Origin: Pyrobaculum islandicum DSM 4184
Lineage (GTDB): Archaea; Thermoproteota; Thermoprotei; Thermoproteales; Thermoproteaceae
Length of the DNA: 64,000 nucleotides
Assembly (NCBI RefSeq): GCF_000015205.1
Contig: NC_008701.1
Location: forward strand, 871,436 to 935,435
Direction of reading: 5' to 3'
Numbering within the stretch: the stretch's first letter is position 1; every line of letters begins with the position of its first letter. Positions 17,930 through 61,614 of the stretch are shown piece after piece. The position numbers and the translations under genes are program-made. The notes under the pieces were generated by a model. It saw only the letters and a program-made list of their open reading frames with translations. It did not search any database and had not been told where the DNA came from.

Positions 17930-18235
17930 ATGACTTGTGTAGATGAGCAGACTGCAGAAAAAGTTGCTAAAAGAAAGGCGTTAGGCAAGCTTGGCGTCCT
18001 TAGACGCTCGGTAAAAGTCTTTAGAATTAGAGTTGGCGACGATTGGATTTTTGGTTTTGTAAAACACAAATTTAGAGAGGGGGGCTTTCAAATAGCTGTA
18101 AAGCTTGTATATATCGACTGTAAGGGGTCTGCGCTTGAGAAAATACCACTTGATCTAGAGGAGAAGATTAGGAGATATATAGAGGAGGGCACCGCAGCGC
18201 TTTTAGAAAGAGAGCTGTCGAACATAGTTAGATGA
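17930..18235 (+). CDS. Hypothetical protein (101 aa) upstream of moeA
   Basis: This is a basic, soluble protein with a central beta-rich part (VFRIRVGDDWIFGFV, FQIAVKLVYIDCKG) and helical ends. It overlaps the MoeA-fusion gene by 4 bases, so the two are probably translated together. A role connected with molybdenum or tungsten cofactor is possible but rests only on this coupling. I recognise no family. Confidence 0.7.
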   Translation: MTCVDEQTAEKVAKRKALGKLGVLRRSVKVFRIRVGDDWIFGFVKHKFREGGFQIAVKLVYIDCKGSALEKIPLDLEEKIRRYIEEGTAALLERELSNIVR

Positions 18236-20145
18236 GGATAATCTTCCACAACCTGGTTACACTTGAACAAGCTATCGAGAGACTTTTGAAATTTGCAAAG
18301 CCTTTAGGAAGCGAGGAGGTAGATATTACAGAGGCCTATGGCAGAGTCTTAGCAACCGACATAGTCGCGCCTGTAGATGTACCTCCATTTGACAGATCTA
18401 CTGTAGATGGTTACGCCGTAATTGCCGAATCTACATATGGCGCATCAGAGCTTACGCCAGTAGAGCTAGAGCTTGTGGGGCGGGTAGAGGCTGGCGAGTG
18501 GCCAAGTGTCGAAGTACATATGGGAGAGGCTGTAGAAATCGCCACAGGGGCGCCATTGCCGCGGGGAGCAAACGCCGTCGTTATGGTTGAGTATTCACAG
18601 GAGAGAGACGGCAAAGTCCGTGTCTTCCGCTCTGTGGCGCCAGGAGAGAATGTTATGTCTGCTGGATCTGACATATCGGCAGGAGAAGTTGTTTTAAAAA
18701 AATGTACAAGACTAACGGCTAGAGAGATAGGCGTTTTAGCCGCCTTAGGCATTAGAAGAGTCTCTGTAATTAAGAAGCCACGTGTCTCTATTATATCTAC
18801 AGGCAACGAACTGATACCCCCCGGCGCGACGCTTAGCTTTGGTAAACTATACGATGTAAATAGCTATTCTCTTGCAGCTGCTGTAAGAGAGGCTGGCGGT
18901 ATACCGATTTTACACGGCATCGTTAAAGACGACGAAAAAGAGTATAGAACTGCATTACAAAAAGCTCTTTTAACAAGCGACGTTGTTTTAATAAGCGGGG
19001 GTACCTCGGCGGGAGTCGCAGATCTAACATATAGAGTGTTGGGAGAGCTTGGCGAAGTGCTTTTTCACGGGATTATGGTTAAACCTGGAAAACCGACTCT
19101 GGCGGCTGTTGTTAACGATAAGGTAGTAGTGGGGTTGCCTGGGTATCCCTCCTCTGCTTTAATGATCTTCCATATAATAGTACGGCCATATCTCTTACAA
19201 TTACAATGTCTAGAGCCAGAGTCGGCGATGGTAGTGAGGGCAAAACTCGCATATAGTATAGAGGGTGCCAAAGGTAGACGTGCACTTTACCCCGTAGTGT
19301 TAGTTATGAGGGACAATGAATATAGAGCATACCCTCTATATGCTGAATCTGGAGCCATATCTGTCCTAGCTAGATCTGATGGATATATTACAGTGCCAGA
19401 AAATGTAGAGTTTCTACAAGAGGGCGAAGAAGTAGAGGTATATCTATTCGAGCGGTATAAACCAGCAGAGCTATATTTCATAGGTAGCCACGACCCGCTT
19501 CTAGATTCTATACTTGCAAAACATAACGTCAAAGCTGTATATGTAGGCTCTATGGGCGGCTTAATGGCGTTAAAACGCGGAGAGGCAGATATTGCCGGTT
19601 GCCATATATACGACCCAGAGACGGGAGTTTACAACATCCCGTTTGTAAAAAAATTGGGGATTAGGAATGTGGCTGTTGTAGGCCTTTTCGAACGTGAACA
19701 AGGCTTAATATTACAAAAAGGCAATCCCAAGAGTGTTAGGGGTATAGAGGATTTCATACGTCCAGACATAGTAATTGTAAATAGGCCAAGAGGCACAGGC
19801 ACAAGGGCGTTATTAGACGCTCTATTAGACAGCCTAGCCAAGAAATTAAACATGCCACTTGAAGAACTTACGAAAAAGATAAAGGGTTATACGTATGAAG
19901 TTAAAACACATACAGCTGTAGCTGCCGCTGTAGCGCAGGGTAGAGCGGATGTAGGCATAGGCGTAAGATTTGCTGCTGAGCTTTACGGCCTTGAGTTTAT
20001 GCCGTTGGGTTGGGAGCAATACGACTTGGTCGTAAAGAGAGATGTCTTAGATAAAACTCTTGATATAGTAGAGGAAGTGTTACAAAATCTACCGCCTGGC
20101 TATAGGAGATACGAATGGTCAAACAAAATAAAGTTTGAAAATTAG
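18232..20145 (+). CDS. moeA: MoeA molybdopterin molybdenumtransferase fused to PBP-like domain
   Basis: This 637-aa protein has a MoeA part (about 1-405) with VDVPPFDRSTVDGYAV, GAPLPRGANAVV, ISTGNEL, SGGTSAG and VGLPGYPSSA motifs. A C-terminal domain (about 415-637) begins YFIGSHDPLLD and contains NRPRGTGTRALLD, typical of the periplasmic-binding-protein-like domain found in some archaeal MoeA and ModE-like regulators. MoeA inserts Mo or W into adenylated molybdopterin; the extra domain may bind the oxyanion or a ligand. It converges on a second, single-domain moeA. Confidence 0.9.
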   Translation: MRIIFHNLVTLEQAIERLLKFAKPLGSEEVDITEAYGRVLATDIVAPVDVPPFDRSTVDGYAVIAESTYGASELTPVELELVGRVEAGEWPSVEVHMGEAVEIATGAPLPRGANAVVMVEYSQERDGKVRVFRSVAPGENVMSAGSDISAGEVVLKKCTRLTAREIGVLAALGIRRVSVIKKPRVSIISTGNELIPPGATLSFGKLYDVNSYSLAAAVREAGGIPILHGIVKDDEKEYRTALQKALLTSDVVLISGGTSAGVADLTYRVLGELGEVLFHGIMVKPGKPTLAAVVNDKVVVGLPGYPSSALMIFHIIVRPYLLQLQCLEPESAMVVRAKLAYSIEGAKGRRALYPVVLVMRDNEYRAYPLYAESGAISVLARSDGYITVPENVEFLQEGEEVEVYLFERYKPAELYFIGSHDPLLDSILAKHNVKAVYVGSMGGLMALKRGEADIAGCHIYDPETGVYNIPFVKKLGIRNVAVVGLFEREQGLILQKGNPKSVRGIEDFIRPDIVIVNRPRGTGTRALLDALLDSLAKKLNMPLEELTKKIKGYTYEVKTHTAVAAAVAQGRADVGIGVRFAAELYGLEFMPLGWEQYDLVVKRDVLDKTLDIVEEVLQNLPPGYRRYEWSNKIKFEN

Positions 20146-20155
20146 TCCACTAGCT

Positions 20156-20197
20156 CCCCTTTTGTCACGCCGGCCTTCCCCGGGGAGCTCGGGACAT
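20156..20197 (-). repeat. Inverted 3'-end fragment of the GC-rich element
   Basis: Read on the minus strand this matches the last ~40 bases of the GC-rich element family: the CGAGCTCC..GGGGA hairpin, a GCCGG block and the terminal aaaaggggagc. It lies head-on to the longer plus-strand copy that follows, so both ends of the 20.15-20.38 kb block carry the element's 3' terminus pointing outward. Confidence 0.5.
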
Positions 20198-20376
20198 GTC
20201 CGGAGCCGTGGCCCCGGCCTTGGGGACCCGGCCGGTTGCTACATTTGACGCGCCCGTACGCCCGGGCACGGCCGTGCCCCTCTCGTCTCCGCCCCGCCCG
20301 TTAAGGGCGTCTGGCGGAGGCGGGCTAAACCCTTGCCCCCGGGAGAGGGCCGGGCGTTGCCGCTAAAAGGGGGCAC
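20198..20376 (+). ncRNA. Solo GC-rich structured element (omega-RNA-like, copy D)
   Basis: This copy has no tnpB beside it and lies between the two convergent moeA genes. It shares the landmarks of the family: CTTGGGGACCCGGCC near the start, a central hairpin (20287-20293 pairs with 20313-20319, inner stem 20295-20299 with 20305-20309), a GGGAGAGGGCC block and the terminal aaaaggggg. It is closest to the copy at 31.3 kb. Composition is far above the neighbouring genes in GC. Confidence 0.6.
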
Positions 20377-20404: not shown

Positions 20405-21643
20405 TTAATCCACTGGGCCGAGAAGTATTACCTCTACTTCTTCACCCTCGTCATATCCCTCACGGTTCTCTGGCACGATTAATAACGCATTACCTTTTGT
20501 CAGGGTTGACAATATTCCGCTTCCTGTAACTGCCAGAGGCTCTGCGTAAAGACGCCCGCCCTCTTTGTATACTCTCACACGTACAAAACTTCTGACGTTA
20601 ATTGGAGTTGTTACTCTTCTAGTAAGTACAGCTCTTGCCGTTGGGAGAGGTTCTTCTCTTGCGCCAACCATTTTTAAAATTATGGGCTTTACAAAAACCT
20701 CAAACCCGACAATAGATGCCACTGGGAATCCAGACAACATAACTATGGGCTTCCCGCCTACAACTGCGGCACTGTTGGGTCTGCCCGGCCTAGCCGCTAT
20801 GCCATGTATTAACACCTCAGGCTTTAGATGAGACACCGCCTTTATTACATAGTCAGGCTCTCCGACTGATACACCGCCTGTAGTTATGACTATATCAAAG
20901 CGGTTTAACGCCTCTTTTATAGCTCTATATATTATCTCTTCGTCATCTGGCACAATGCCCATGTAGTATACGTCAACGCCGAACTCCTTGAGGATTGCTG
21001 TTATCACGTGACGAGTGCTATTTATTACTTTGCCAGGAGGAGGAGAGGCCTCTTCTAACTCCACAAGTTCGCTGCCGGTGGATATTAACGCGGCAGTTAT
21101 CTTATAAACATAGACTTGTCTCACGCCTACTGACGCCAAAACACCTAAATCCCAAGGTTTTATCTTCTTTCCACGTCTTAAGACTACCTCCCCCGCTGCA
21201 ATATCCTCTCCCCTCCTAGAGACGTAGTAAAAACGTGGGACTGGCCTATACACCTCTAGGTAGCCATCTCTTTTTACCGCCTCTTCATATGGAACTACCG
21301 CATCTGCACCTTCGGGAAGCGGAGCCCCCGTAGCAATTTCTACAGCTTCGCCCGGTTTTAACACGTTTGTATATGGAGAATTAGGCAACGACTTACCCAC
21401 AATTCTTAATAAAATGGGATTTGTACGAGATGCGCCCAACGTATCTTCAGACCGCACTGCATAGCCGTCAAACGCCGCTCTATCAAACGGAGGTACATCT
21501 ATGGAAGATATTATATCTCTAGACGCATATAGACCAAGAGACTCCGGAAGCGCAACTAAAGCCTCCTGGGGGACATGTGTTATTGCGTTAAGGACAATTC
21601 TCTGCGCCTCTGCGATAGGCGTCAAACTTTTAAACCCTCTCAC
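20405..21643 (-). CDS. moeA: MoeA molybdopterin molybdenumtransferase, single-domain
   Basis: This 412-aa protein has the whole MoeA motif set (IDVPPFDRAAFDGYAV, GAPLPEGADAVV, ISTGSELVE, TTGGVSVGEPD, LSGFPVAS) and no C-terminal extra domain. Two MoeA paralogs are common in archaea that use both Mo and W, and one may prefer each metal (inference). The GC-rich solo element lies beyond its 3' end. Its start is 46 bases from the divergent gene at 21689. Confidence 0.9.
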   Translation of the reverse strand: MRGFKSLTPIAEAQRIVLNAITHVPQEALVALPESLGLYASRDIISSIDVPPFDRAAFDGYAVRSEDTLGASRTNPILLRIVGKSLPNSPYTNVLKPGEAVEIATGAPLPEGADAVVPYEEAVKRDGYLEVYRPVPRFYYVSRRGEDIAAGEVVLRRGKKIKPWDLGVLASVGVRQVYVYKITAALISTGSELVELEEASPPPGKVINSTRHVITAILKEFGVDVYYMGIVPDDEEIIYRAIKEALNRFDIVITTGGVSVGEPDYVIKAVSHLKPEVLIHGIAARPGRPNSAAVVGGKPIVMLSGFPVASIVGFEVFVKPIILKMVGAREEPLPTARAVLTRRVTTPINVRSFVRVRVYKEGGRLYAEPLAVTGSGILSTLTKGNALLIVPENREGYDEGEEVEVILLGPVD

Positions 21644-30302: not shown

Positions 30303-30849
30303 GACACATGCGGCACGGAGGGGAAAACTAGTTGGAGACGCGCCTACTCTCGTCCCTAAGAAGCACCACGATAGTTACAATGGAAAGCGTTGATATAGTT
30401 GACATTGCGACGAGCGCCCGGAGAACGGTCTCGGAGCGCAAAGGCGGTGTACTACGTCGCGGTCGTGACCCCCAACTACCGTGGCCAAAGACGCGACCAG
30501 AATCCGCATCCCGTCGGGAGAGAAAGGCGAGCGTGCAACACGTTCGGCTTTCGGGGTCGCCGAAAGTCAATTTATCGTTAACTTGATACAAGCCAACCTA
30601 GGGGAAGTGGGTTAGAAACGGGTTTACGGCGGTTCTCACGGCGTCGCCGCCAACGCCACGATGGGTATTGTCAATTGAACAAGACTTGGGGTGGCAACGG
30701 CGGCGTATGACGCCGGCGAGGTCGGCAAGTTGCTAGCGACGGCTCTGGCTGCGAAGGTCAACAACATGCCTCCCAACGCCGCCTTTACGACGGCGCCGCT
30801 CAGCGCCACCGCTGCCGTGGCCAACACGGCGGGCGTCGCGTATATGGCC
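30303..30849. other. Decayed sequence between tnpB fragments
   Basis: Bases 30303-30345 are the conserved tnpB leader (minus strand). From about 30640 to 30900 both strands have long Ala/Val-rich open frames, which on either strand would be hydrophobic; they may be the remains of a small membrane protein gene like the one at 59.0-59.5 kb, but the similarity is only compositional apart from the last dozen codons near 30340. No intact gene is supported. Confidence 0.4.
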
Positions 30850-31215
30850 GTCTCTAGTTGGCTCGTACTGGAAGGGGCAACGCCGCCCGCGAGATCATAA
30901 AGCTGGCCAGAGAACGTCAAGCCGTGATCGTAGTAGACACAATGGAGGACGACACGTACCGAGAGTTGAAGGAGGGGAACGGAGAGAAGAAACACCTCTA
31001 CGACGGCCTCGGCCAGCTGAGGAGGCGCAGTGGTACGGCATTCCATATGTAGAGGTGCGACTCTACAGCACGGTCTGCCCCCGTTGTGGAGCCAAGATGG
31101 AAGAGGGGTCGCGTAATGCGTTGCCCCACCTGCGGCTTCTCGAACTATAGGGATCGGATCCCCTGTTGCGGACAAAGAGGAGGTGCCGGGAACTCCTCCA
31201 AGAGACAAAACAACC
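30850..31215 (+). pseudogene. tnpB C-terminal remnant (copy C)
   Basis: The segment encodes the RuvC-II region (VIVVDTMEDDTYRELKE) and KKHLYDGLGQLRRR. After a 16-base deletion and a frameshift come QWYGIPYVE and the first zinc knuckle CPRCGAKM, then further shifts through the second knuckle. The same 16-base deletion is in the copy at 32.9 kb. The N-terminal half is absent. The GC-rich element follows at 31275. Confidence 0.85.
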
Positions 31216-31274
31216 AGCTTTTTCCCCGTCCAGACAATCATCTTACTTTTAAACTCGTAAAACATTCCTTTCCA

Positions 31275-31432
31275 TGTACCAACCAGCCCTGGGGACCCGG
31301 CCGGCTGTTGAAGTCCGCCAAGCCCATCCGCCCGGACACGGCCAGACCCCCCACGTCCCGGGTTGCCCAGCGCGACTCGGGTGCGTGCCCCGAACTCCCC
31401 CGGGGGAGGGCCGACGCCATAAAAGGAGAGCC
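31275..31432 (+). ncRNA. GC-rich structured element after decayed tnpB (copy C)
   Basis: It lies directly downstream of the tnpB remnant, like copy A after the intact gene. Landmarks are CCCTGGGGACCCGG, a central hairpin with ten pairs (31357-31366 with 31372-31381, five-base loop), a CCCCCGGGGGAGGG hairpin and the terminal aaaaggagagcc. The bases of the central stem differ from copies A, B and D but pairing is kept. Confidence 0.6.
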
Positions 31433-32892: not shown

Positions 32893-33345
32893 ACGAGGAC
32901 AGGGATCGCGCAAGGCCCTCGACCTCCAGAGACAACTGTGGAAGCTTAAGACGAAGCGCTACGGCGTAATCCGCGAGGTCGTAGTAGACGCGACGCGTGA
33001 AGTCATAAAACTGGCGAGAGAGAGCCAAGCCGCGATCGTAGTAGACACGATGGGGACGAGACGTATTTGGCGAAGAAGCAAAGCGGCGAAAACGGCAGTA
33101 AGAAACACCTCTACGACGGCCTCGGCCAACTGAGGAGGCGCAGTGGTACGGCTTGCCCTATGTGGAGGAGCGGCGGTATTCAACAGTCTGTCCAAAGCGC
33201 GACGCAAAGGTGGTAGAGGAGAGGGGTCGCGTAATGCATTGCCCCGCCTGCGGCTTCAGAGCGCACCGCGACAACGCCCCCATGACATGGCGGAGAAGAG
33301 GTACTGGGGGCTACTCCAGAAACAACCCCCTCGGCGACCACCACC
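32893..33345 (+). pseudogene. tnpB C-terminal remnant (copy E)
   Basis: It encodes a region aligning with about residue 275 of the intact TnpB onward (ATREVIKLARESQAAIVVDTM), then frameshifts. KKHLYDGLGQLRRR is followed by the same 16-base deletion as copy C, then QWYGLPYVEERR, one damaged zinc knuckle (CPKRDAK) and a preserved second one (CPACGFRAHRDN). The gene is clearly dead. A degenerate GC-rich element follows. Confidence 0.85.
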
Positions 33346-36082: not shown

Positions 36083-36262
36083 GGCCCCCCTTTTGCGGCT
36101 CCCGGCCCTCTCCGGGAGGGCTCGGGGCCCGCCCGCGGAGACGCCTTTTGGGCGACCGCGGGCGAGGGGGCTCGGGTCGTTGGGGGCTGGCTGTGCCCCC
36201 TGGTCGCCGGGCCCCCAGACCGGGGATTTCGTGTCCTGAAGCGGAGGATACATGCGCTAGGT
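36083..36262 (-). ncRNA. Solo GC-rich structured element (omega-RNA-like, copy B)
   Basis: Read on the minus strand it matches copy A nearly throughout, including remains of the last tnpB codons (a short LT-stop) at its 5' end near 36259. Hairpin 2 pairs 36182-36187 with 36195-36200 around the conserved loop ACAGCCA. Hairpin 3 pairs 36131-36138 with 36156-36163 perfectly, although its bases differ from copy A. The element ends near 36083 (aaaaggggggcc). No tnpB body is present. It fills the gap between two convergent genes. Confidence 0.7.
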
Positions 36263-58730: not shown

Positions 58731-59004
58731 TGTTGTACAGCTTCTTGGCCCATACTATGGGGATGTTGTCTCTGTTGTCTGAGAAGCCGCATGTTAGACA
58801 ACGCATAATACGGTTCTTCTCCTCAACCATCTTAGCTCCACAACGGGGGCAGACGGTTGAATGCAACCTCTCTTCTAGATACGGAATGCCGTACCATTGC
58901 GCCAATTCCTTCAACTTACGCACCGCTAGGTCGAGGACGTTTGCTCGCTCCTTGACAAGTCTGTGAGGTAGTCTGATCTTCAACGTCCTGTAGACTTGGT
59001 TCAT
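58714..59004 (-). CDS. Mini-TnpB with in-frame internal deletion
   Basis: The 96-aa reading frame joins the TnpB N terminus (VYRTLKIRLPHRLVKERANVL, quoted in part) directly to the C-terminal zinc finger (QWYGIPYLEERL, CPRCGAKM, CLTCGFSDNRDN). Compared with the intact TnpB at 60025, residues about 30-345 are gone, including RuvC-I and RuvC-II, yet the frame is open. The leader before the ATG is conserved with two other tnpB copies. No GC-rich element follows; the end is inside ilvA. It could be a dead remnant or a zinc-finger peptide. Confidence 0.75.
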   Translation of the reverse strand: MNQVYRTLKIRLPHRLVKERANVLDLAVRKLKELAQWYGIPYLEERLHSTVCPRCGAKMVEEKNRIMRCLTCGFSDNRDNIPIVWAKKLYNIKPLL

Positions 59005-59047
59005 GTGCGCATGCGGCGAGGGAGAGAAATGCTAGTTGGGAGGGCGT
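59005..59047 (-). repeat. Conserved tnpB leader / putative left end
   Basis: On the minus strand the ~40 bases before the mini-tnpB ATG, starting ..CTCCCAACTAGC, match 30303-30345 (before the tnpB remnant) and more loosely the bases before the intact tnpB (about 59985-60024, starting CCAACAG). This marks the likely left end or promoter of the element. Confidence 0.5.
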
Positions 59048-59587: not shown

Positions 59588-60024
59588 AACCGAGGTAGTA
59601 GAAAGAGGTGTGCGGGGTTGGCGGAAGACGTGGTGGGCGTTGAAAAAGGGGCTAGGGTTTTAGGAGGTAGGAGACGAGGCGGTGGGGGCGTAGATAAGGC
59701 CGTAGAGCTCTTGGACGTGTGGCGGCTTGGCTCTTATCGTTATTTCCGGGTATTCCGGAGGTTTTGCATATAGGAGTACGGCCGTAGTTATATCAGCCCT
59801 GAAGTGGACGTAGAGCCCCTCTGGCCGGCTCTCGGTAATCGTGGCGACTATGGTCAACACCGCCGCGTATGTCGCAGTCCCGGGGGAGGGGTCGGTGTTT
59901 CGCCAGCTCTGAGGAGAGGCGGGGCACAACGTCGGGGCCGTGGGTTTGTCTTGTGAAACTTTTGGCTTGCCCCCGTGTGTCTTCTATAACCAACAGAGAT
60001 TTCAGCCCCACCACATATACACAC
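59588..60024. other. Gap upstream of intact tnpB
   Basis: A minus-strand frame (59660-59929, 89 codons) reads like protein in its last 60 residues (EGLYVHFRADITTAVLLYA) but has no family match I recognise and no good start. The last ~40 bases before 60025 match the tnpB leader. Nothing else is supported. Confidence 0.4.
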
Positions 60025-61275
60025 ATGTACGTATACAGAACGCTGAGGATAGAGATACCTTGGCGCCTTGTCGAAGAGAGACCGGACGTCCTCGGCCTCG
60101 CCGTAAGGATGCGCCTAGCGGTGGAGGAGTACGCCAGAAGGCTGTTAAAGGAGTTGACGGGGCAAGAGGAGCCCAAGCTCGCGCCGGAGGAGCTTGTCTG
60201 CTTGCTTACTCCCGACAGACGGGAGCTGGCACGGCGGATTATCGAGGAGGTGTTTCCCAAGTACGGACTTAAGAGATATATCGCAGAGTGGGCTAAGTTC
60301 TTCTGGCGCGACGTAGTGTTCCACAGGGCGGTTCCGCTCAACGCCCAACTTAGAGTTGGGAACGAAAGAGACATAAGTATGGCGGTCTTTGTCGACCTAA
60401 AGAGCGGTATTGTTAGAGTAAGAAAACTCGGCATACCGCCTTTCGCCGTCGAGTTGAAGAAGAACAACATAGTTTGGATAAGGGAGAGACTAGAAGAGGG
60501 CGCCAAATTGAAGTTGGCGTTCCTCGGCATAGAGAGACAGAGGGGCAAGGAGCCGACCTACGGCAAGCTCTACGTCGCCCTCGTCTTCGCCCGCGAAGTT
60601 CAACAGATAAAGCCCAGGGCCGTTGTTGTCGTTGACGTGAACCGTCTCGACAACGGCGTCACGGCGGGTCTCCTCGTGGATGGAAAACTGAGACAGACGT
60701 TGAGACTTCCCGACGAGAGCGCGGTAAGAGAACTGAGGAGACTCCACGAGGAGATAAGCCGTCTTGACGGAAAAGCCGCTAGGGAGGCGGATCCCGTCAG
60801 AAGGAGACGTCTCGAAGACAGAGCACGTTATCTCGCGTCTAAGCGGTTTAGGAAGATAAGGGGCATTGTGGCGCATATCGCTAGAGAAATAATCGAGCTC
60901 GCCAAGACGTACAGCGCCGCCGTCGTGGTGGACACAATGGAGGACGAAACATATCGAGAGCTCAAAGAAAGGAACAGTAGCGGAGTGAAGAAACACTTTC
61001 TAGACGGGTTGGGCCAACTGAGGAGGCGCCTACAACACTTGGCACAGTGGTACGGCTTGCCGTATTTGGAGGAGCGGCTGTATTCGACCATCTGCCCCCG
61101 CTGTGGCGCGAAGATGAAAGAGCTGAATAACAGGCGAATGCGGTGTCCCGTCTGCGGCTTCAACAACAACCGAGACAACGTGCCGCTGATATGGGCAAAG
61201 AGAAGGTACTGGGAAATCCTCCAAAAGACAAAACAACCCGCTTTTTCAGCGACCACCACACTTTTAACCTCGTAA
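60025..61275 (+). CDS. tnpB: TnpB RNA-guided nuclease-family protein (IS605/IS1341 type)
   Basis: From the ATG at 60025 the protein is 416 aa (an in-frame start 52 codons earlier is unlikely, since other copies begin at VYRTL). RuvC-I Asp204 (VVVDVNR), RuvC-III Asp384 (NNNRDN) and a zinc finger (Cys357, 360, 374, 377) are present. At RuvC-II, where TnpB has Glu in VxxE, this reads VVVDTMED (Asp303, Glu306). TnpB proteins cut DNA guided by an RNA from the element's 3' end. No tnpA lies nearby. A GC-rich structured element follows the stop. Confidence 0.9.
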   Translation: MYVYRTLRIEIPWRLVEERPDVLGLAVRMRLAVEEYARRLLKELTGQEEPKLAPEELVCLLTPDRRELARRIIEEVFPKYGLKRYIAEWAKFFWRDVVFHRAVPLNAQLRVGNERDISMAVFVDLKSGIVRVRKLGIPPFAVELKKNNIVWIRERLEEGAKLKLAFLGIERQRGKEPTYGKLYVALVFAREVQQIKPRAVVVVDVNRLDNGVTAGLLVDGKLRQTLRLPDESAVRELRRLHEEISRLDGKAAREADPVRRRRLEDRARYLASKRFRKIRGIVAHIAREIIELAKTYSAAVVVDTMEDETYRELKERNSSGVKKHFLDGLGQLRRRLQHLAQWYGLPYLEERLYSTICPRCGAKMKELNNRRMRCPVCGFNNNRDNVPLIWAKRRYWEILQKTKQPAFSATTTLLTS

Positions 61276-61439
61276 GTCTCCTCATTTCATGAGCCACATC
61301 CCCGGCCCTGGGGCCCGGCGACCAAGGGGGGCAAAGCCAGCCCCCTATGACCCGAGCCCTCTCGTCTGGGGTTGCCGAAAGGCGGCCCCGGACGGGCCCC
61401 GAGCTCCCCCGGGGAGGCCGGGAGCCGCAAAGGGGAGCC
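61276..61439 (+). ncRNA. Putative omega-RNA / right end of intact tnpB element (copy A)
   Basis: It begins at the tnpB stop. Hairpin 2 (61325-61346) has the loop AAAGCCA. Hairpin 3 pairs 61364-61376 with 61381-61393 (13 pairs, GAAA tetraloop). Hairpin 4 is at 61404-61416. The end is gcaaaggggagcc. Position right after tnpB, structure and recurrence after other tnpB copies match the omega-RNA scaffold; the guide would then be the bases from about 61440. The omega-RNA often includes the end of the tnpB coding sequence. Confidence 0.65.
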
Positions 61440-61614
61440 AAACAGGGTAGAAACCAAAGACGTGTATATCGCCACTTCCACATTTTTGTCAACATGCCAT
61501 CTGTCTCATGGACAAGAGGACGTAACCGGCGTTGGTATCGTCTACCTTCGCTTGACCTGAGAGTCCTTTTGTCCTAAAGAAAGGGCTCTCGTGTAACTGT
61601 CTGAAACTTGATGT

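Follow-up and report, generated by a model that had tools for sequence, protein, structure and literature searches.

The hairpin at positions 61361-61396 of the window, a 64,000-nt stretch of the Pyrobaculum islandicum genome, is very probably the central stem of a TnpB omega-RNA (reRNA), a scaffold of ~145-155 nt that lies directly behind tnpB and is present in ~95 copies in this 1.83 Mb genome. Judged from its sequence, this RNA is shown to have linkage to tnpB, a sharp 3′ boundary, co-occurrence with one TnpB clade, and a covarying outer stem (P1), central hairpin and pseudoknot; it is guide-RNA-like by anatomy, and the family belongs to one TnpB clade in this archaeal family. The guide-RNA scaffold is previously uncatalogued. 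No Rfam family, sotRNA RF02656 and RF02657 included, was found on the window at the gathering threshold, a permissive search at E up to 5 in the region of copy A returned one chance miRNA match far under threshold, and titles and abstract openings of the open-access papers searched yielded no description of this RNA.

The hairpin, its host RNA and the neighbouring tnpB

Direct reading located all four central-hairpin stems of the original prediction at the positions given for them, namely in copy A (GTCTGGGG, 61364-61371, with CCCCGGAC, 61386-61393, plus strand), copy B (GCCCGCGG, 36163-36156, with CCGCGGGC, 36138-36131, minus strand), copy C (CCCGGGTTGC, 31357-31366, with GCGACTCGGG, 31372-31381, plus strand) and copy D (CTCCGCC, 20287-20293, with GGCGGAG, 20313-20319, plus strand). 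The pairing proposed for copy A is present, whereas its extent had been set too short, as the helix read directly and taken through the covariation and arm-swap tests below comprises 16 bp (61361-61376 with 61381-61396, plus strand) around a GAAA loop. Between copies A and B, both bases have changed in two pairs of the stem (T-A to C-G, G-C to C-G) and a single base in one pair (T-G to C-G). The statement that sequence differs while pairing holds is correct for all four copies, but their stems do not correspond column by column, since C and D belong to another subtype with central hairpins of a different construction. Compared with dinucleotide shuffles, the whole-copy fold was better for A (z -3.4) and B (z -3.2), weakly better for D (z -1.7) and not better for C (z -0.4), so that folding energy alone is insufficient to support the claim.

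Copy A is a type 1 omega-RNA with a scaffold at 61290-61438 on the plus strand (match of the CM R1 at contig positions 932732-932873, 126 bits), the 5′ end being placed approximately. Its outer stem P1 pairs 61301-61307 with 61416-61422 (plus strand; type 1 covariation, P1 swap test and direct reading), and a pseudoknot helix, read directly and supported by covariation, joins GCTCCCC (61403-61409) to GGGGAGC (61432-61438) on the same strand. This helix crosses P1, as the 3′ arm of P1 sits between its two strands. The presumed guide region follows at 61439-61458 (plus strand), where the flank is not common to the copies; a length of 20 nt is assigned to it by analogy. A TATA-like box read directly as TTTTAA lies inside the last tnpB codons (61262-61267, plus strand), ~25-30 nt ahead of the start of the RNA core. 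Genome-wide, such a box was present 28-52 nt upstream of 29/36 tnpB-linked versus 5/24 unlinked copies, and it may possibly act as the omega-RNA's own promoter.

The gene upstream of copy A (59869-61275, plus strand) is an intact tnpB encoding a RuvC-like nuclease with a C-terminal zinc ribbon, as assigned by Pfam, NCBIfam and an AlphaFold model. Its open frame of 468 aa likely starts at the ATG at 60025, giving a protein of 416 aa. The protein matched Pfam Cas12f1-like_TNB (36.3 bits) and NCBIfam guided_TnpB (E 8e-19), the latter at 68 bits and hence under the curated cut-off of 100. The top PDB matches of the AlphaFold model (pLDDT 75.5) in Foldseek were Cas12f and TnpB proteins, the best being AsCas12f (E 2e-10); TM-scores were moderate (best 0.53), and ISFba1 TnpB (8iaz) was among the best fold matches. 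Eleven further near-full-length copies in the genome are 65-82% identical to the window protein. In the numbering of the 416 aa form, D204 and D384 are invariant, as is D303 in 12/12 proteins. The canonical RuvC triad is Asp, Glu, Asp, with Glu as the RuvC-II acid of canonical TnpB; in the present model Asp303, assigned by strand position only, appears to take the place of this Glu. Scans of genome contigs and viral contigs with the TnpB protein gave no confirmed relative.

Three decayed tnpB genes were identified in the window by tblastn. One, at 58735-59037 on the minus strand, faces away from the intact gene as its divergent partner, and divergent head-to-head pairs of this kind, here 58735-59037(-) with 59869-61275(+), usually consist of one intact and one truncated gene. 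Another (30738-31231, plus strand) precedes copy C, a type 2-like omega-RNA found by CM search 48 nt behind it (31277-31432, plus strand), and no omega-RNA was detected behind the last (32897-33322, plus strand). Copies B and D are solo: neither has a tnpB match in the 1.7 kb before it. Copy B (36083-36230, minus strand) is of type 1 and holds the best R1 score of all copies (143 bits). Copy D (20207-20376, plus strand; CM search and gene annotation) is of type 2 and joined to the inverted 3′ half of another omega-RNA (20152-20208, minus strand, locus L020), which together form an element of ~220 bp with inverted ends. The two moeA-like genes between which D lies (18232-20145, plus, and 20405-21643, minus) face each other. 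MITE-like short solos with inverted omega-RNA 3′ ends on both sides were observed at D (20152-20376), L025, L016, L123 and L087. Prokaryotic MITEs are short non-coding elements with inverted ends, which D and L025 resemble; unlike in MITEs, the ends here are inverted copies of the omega-RNA scaffold. Most simply, solo copies such as B and D are remnants of elements after loss of tnpB.

Genome-wide census, linkage and distribution

The host, a hot-spring archaeon, has a genome of 1,826,402 bp in a single contig. The CM R1, built from 12 type 1 copies, gave 84 matches in it at E<=1, and two extra models, R2 (type 3) and R3 (type 2), added copies; the non-overlapping union of R1 at E<=0.01 with R2 and R3 at E<=1e-4 amounts to 95 copies. 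The tnpB protein matched 150 places in the genome, 116 of which were chained into 88 loci, and 18 single matches begin no later than aa 50 and extend to at least aa 455, some of them with an internal stop. When a tnpB end was defined as a match reaching aa 440 or later, and these 116 places were used, 49/95 omega-RNAs had a tnpB C-terminal end on the same strand within 150 nt upstream, compared with 2/95 having tnpB within 150 nt downstream in the control; 46/95 copies are without a detected tnpB 3′ end nearby.

The same association is found beyond P. islandicum. R1 detected the omega-RNA in 3/61 genomes, and R2 and R3 found it in the same three among 31. TnpB matches above 700 bits occur in exactly these three genomes, whereas 14 of the other 58 have TnpB at 266 bits or less. 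When linkage required a tnpB match that reached at least aa 440 and lay no more than 250 nt away, the C-terminal end of tnpB lies just upstream of 4/13 and 5/18 omega-RNAs of the two relatives.

Neighbouring tnpB loci within 1.5 kb of each other are divergent in 17 cases, convergent in 3 and in tandem in 4 across the genome, and a single serine recombinase domain (PF00239) was detected, at 718980-719435. A palindrome, TTCACCTGCCTGAC...GTCAGGCAGGTGAA, recurs ahead of tnpB starts, upstream of several genes, and is a possible left end of the element; an exact search for it in the 64-kb window gave no match.

Sorting by regular expression divided 81 copies into classes of 37, 18 and 26, a division that is rough because the first class also took truncated and type 2-like copies, C included. 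The typical P1 is CCCGGCCC/GGGCCGGG in type 1, CCGGCCTT/AAGGCCGG in type 2 and CTTGGCCCC/GGGGCCAAG in type 3.

Covariation of the stems and the pseudoknot at the 3′ boundary

The wider sample comprised 81 copies from the P. islandicum genome together with copies of two related genomes, and kinship among copies inflates all the covariation and swap tests made on it. For type 1, 24 copies from three genomes were aligned to R1, 12 of them being R1 seeds and the alignment being fitted to the structure. Paired cells made up 93.6% of this alignment versus 89.6% in shuffles and 45-57% in slid versions; double changes occurred in 16/32 pairs and, within the central stem, in 4/9, and 0/500 shuffles equalled the observed value on any of five measures. 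An arm-swap test of the central hairpin, which uses no alignment columns and drew on 39 distinct hairpins from 54 copies, showed that own arms pair at -23.2 kcal/mol versus -17.8 kcal/mol for swapped arms (0/20000), and this was also seen within type 1 (19/20000) and type 2 (0/20000). The 11 distinct type 3 hairpins gave no covariation (9402/20000), since this stem is nearly invariant, with a C-A mismatch in many copies. On MAFFT columns, type 2 reached 0/500 for the score and for double-change cells, 142/500 for pairs with a double change and 475/500 for further pair types, the count being weak for the central stem because the alignment mixes differently built central hairpins. The wider sample thus shows covariation at the central stem in two of three subtypes, type 3 excepted. 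Diverged copies also keep more pairs than the divergence of their unpaired sites would predict: six copies labelled solo keep 160/178 versus 120 expected, and 18 others labelled linked, a group that took in relatives' rows unchecked and of which L093, L094 and L096 were later found to be without tnpB, keep 502/529 versus 379 expected.

Swapping the arms of P1 and scoring contiguous runs gave 11/20000 overall and 235/20000 within type 2; the difference was not significant within type 1 (5176/20000) or type 3, and by duplex energy own arms were not separable from foreign ones. Automatic RNAalifold structures of the subtypes contained pairings of GC runs with hardly any covariation and were dropped for types 1 and 2, for which hand-drawn structures were used; the type 3 model R2 kept its automatic structure, for searching only.

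At the 3′ end, the scaffold closes with 7 nt (such as GGGGAGC, GGGGGGC or GGGGGAC) that directly precede the variable flank and are complementary to GCTCCCC, GCCCCCC or GTCCCCC located ~25 nt further upstream. Among 74/81 copies with the 3′ end tied to the CM match (7 were dropped, and a few ends are visibly wrong), own partners formed 5.89 paired bases versus 5.30 for swapped ones (0/20000 permutations). The result was similar within type 1 (14/20000) and type 2 (11/20000), type 3 lent no support (5619/20000), and with 3′ ends that were wrong in many copies the values were 5.26 versus 5.02 (40/20000). In the 58/81 copies with a recognised end, information drops from 1.4-2.0 bits over the final three positions of the scaffold to ~0.1 bit at most flank positions; the first flank position is higher (0.5 bit in type 1, 1.0 bit in type 3). 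The 3′ flanks at L025, L056 and L126 resemble pieces of another tnpB 3′ end, which suggests that these copies inserted beside another element or recombined with one.

Taken together, covariation at the central stem in two of three subtypes and the covarying pseudoknot support the original prediction that selection acts on an RNA or DNA hairpin. Of these, RNA is favoured because the hairpin lies behind tnpB, the 3′ boundary is sharp and the pseudoknot abuts this boundary.

Proposed function, alternative readings and known systems

The scaffold's 3′ end coincides with the end of the mobile element, and the unrelated flanking DNA beyond it would serve as guide. The RNA would be transcribed, perhaps from a promoter of its own located within the 3′ end of tnpB, and bound by the neighbouring TnpB; the flank would then guide cutting of DNA lacking the element, and repair would keep the element in place. 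For ISDra2 TnpB, guide-directed cutting of element-free DNA with retention of the element by repair has been proposed (PMC8612924).

Besides being remnants, solo copies might be kept as trans-acting guide RNAs for intact TnpB, perhaps to the benefit of the host, a reading that would add to the omega-RNA interpretation and that we consider doubtful. It would accommodate the 46/95 copies without a detected tnpB 3′ end nearby and the top CM score of copy B, as well as the pairing kept in the six diverged copies labelled solo (160/178 pairs versus 120 expected). However, this pairing may have been fixed prior to loss of tnpB, many solos are truncated, the TATA-like box stands at its usual place in few of the unlinked copies (5/24, as against 29/36), and a genome-wide search with the 16 nt that follow B, allowing up to two mismatches, gave no further site. 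Carried further, there is a small chance that dozens of solo omega-RNAs constitute a dispersed bank of flank-derived guides serving near-intact TnpB in trans, in a genome where Y1 transposase was not detected and where a family of RNA-guided nucleases has expanded in the form of divergent tnpB pairs that carry omega-RNAs on their outer sides.

Alternatively, the folding element could be a DNA hairpin, that is, a transposon end read as single-stranded DNA by a transposase and devoid of RNA function. The repeats do sit at element ends, and several solos, among them D, L025, 1097678 and 1133041, are near-palindromic with inverted ends and MITE-like. Yet Y1 transposase, the enzyme known for reading transposon-end hairpins, was not detected: the Y1 TnpA model PF01797 had 0 matches in the genome at E<=0.01, while the same model matched 6/14 control genomes. 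Furthermore, the window element stands behind an intact tnpB, and several helices with a pseudoknot by the variable flank exceed what an end hairpin needs. The balance of G-U over A-C appositions favours the sense RNA strand in the type 1 central hairpin (33 vs 8) but not in type 2 helices (12 vs 22), and as this test is mixed, quite unlikely is the most that we would say of the DNA alternative. Finally, an unrelated structured RNA or repeat flanked by tnpB elements through chance, to which the absence of an Rfam match and the roughly half of copies not beside a detected tnpB might point, is highly improbable in view of the asymmetric linkage (49/95 versus 2/95), its recurrence in two relatives (strictly 4/13 and 5/18) and the exact co-occurrence with the same TnpB clade.

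As a TnpB omega-RNA, the scaffold resembles that of ISDra2 in forming the right end of the element behind tnpB, in its variable 3′ guide, in its similar size (116-nt scaffold in the ISDra2 structure) and in having stems and a pseudoknot just before the guide (PMC8612924, PMC10097598); in the cryo-EM study of ISDra2 TnpB, the pseudoknot beside the guide is described as conserved among Cas12 guide RNAs (PMC10097598). The pseudoknot partner, however, lies ~25 nt upstream across P1 here and ~100 nt upstream in ISDra2 (PMC8612924, PMC10097598). Also unlike ISDra2, the Pyrobaculum scaffold is very GC-rich and has no Rfam sequence match, and the search of its genome for Y1 TnpA was negative. The haloarchaeal sotRNAs RF02656 and RF02657 are likewise archaeal, located at the tnpB 3′ end and since recognised as omega-RNAs (PMC12558985), but the window matches neither these nor any other Rfam family. 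A conserved scaffold immediately behind tnpB is also shared with RAGATH-18, the reRNA of IS607 TnpB (PMC11061315). Since 64% of RAGATH-18 RNAs, 97.8% of whose strains are Firmicutes, adjoin an IS607 tnpB (PMC11061315), unlinked copies are known for that RNA too; it is nonetheless a different RNA family, and the tnpB of the window has no serine recombinase seen next to it.

According to PMC3396285, P. islandicum has only a type III-A CRISPR module without cas1-cas2, and a link between this and the expansion of tnpB is speculation. Small-RNA reads of this organism exist (PMC3396285), so that expression can be checked without new wet work. Overall, these results add an omega-RNA family from a hyperthermophile, in which the scaffold has diverged naturally into three subtypes and the pseudoknot is backed by covariation. 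The family can be used in structure-function studies of TnpB guide RNAs, and the genome itself poses the question of how ~88 tnpB loci and 95 omega-RNAs accumulated without a detected Y1 transposase.
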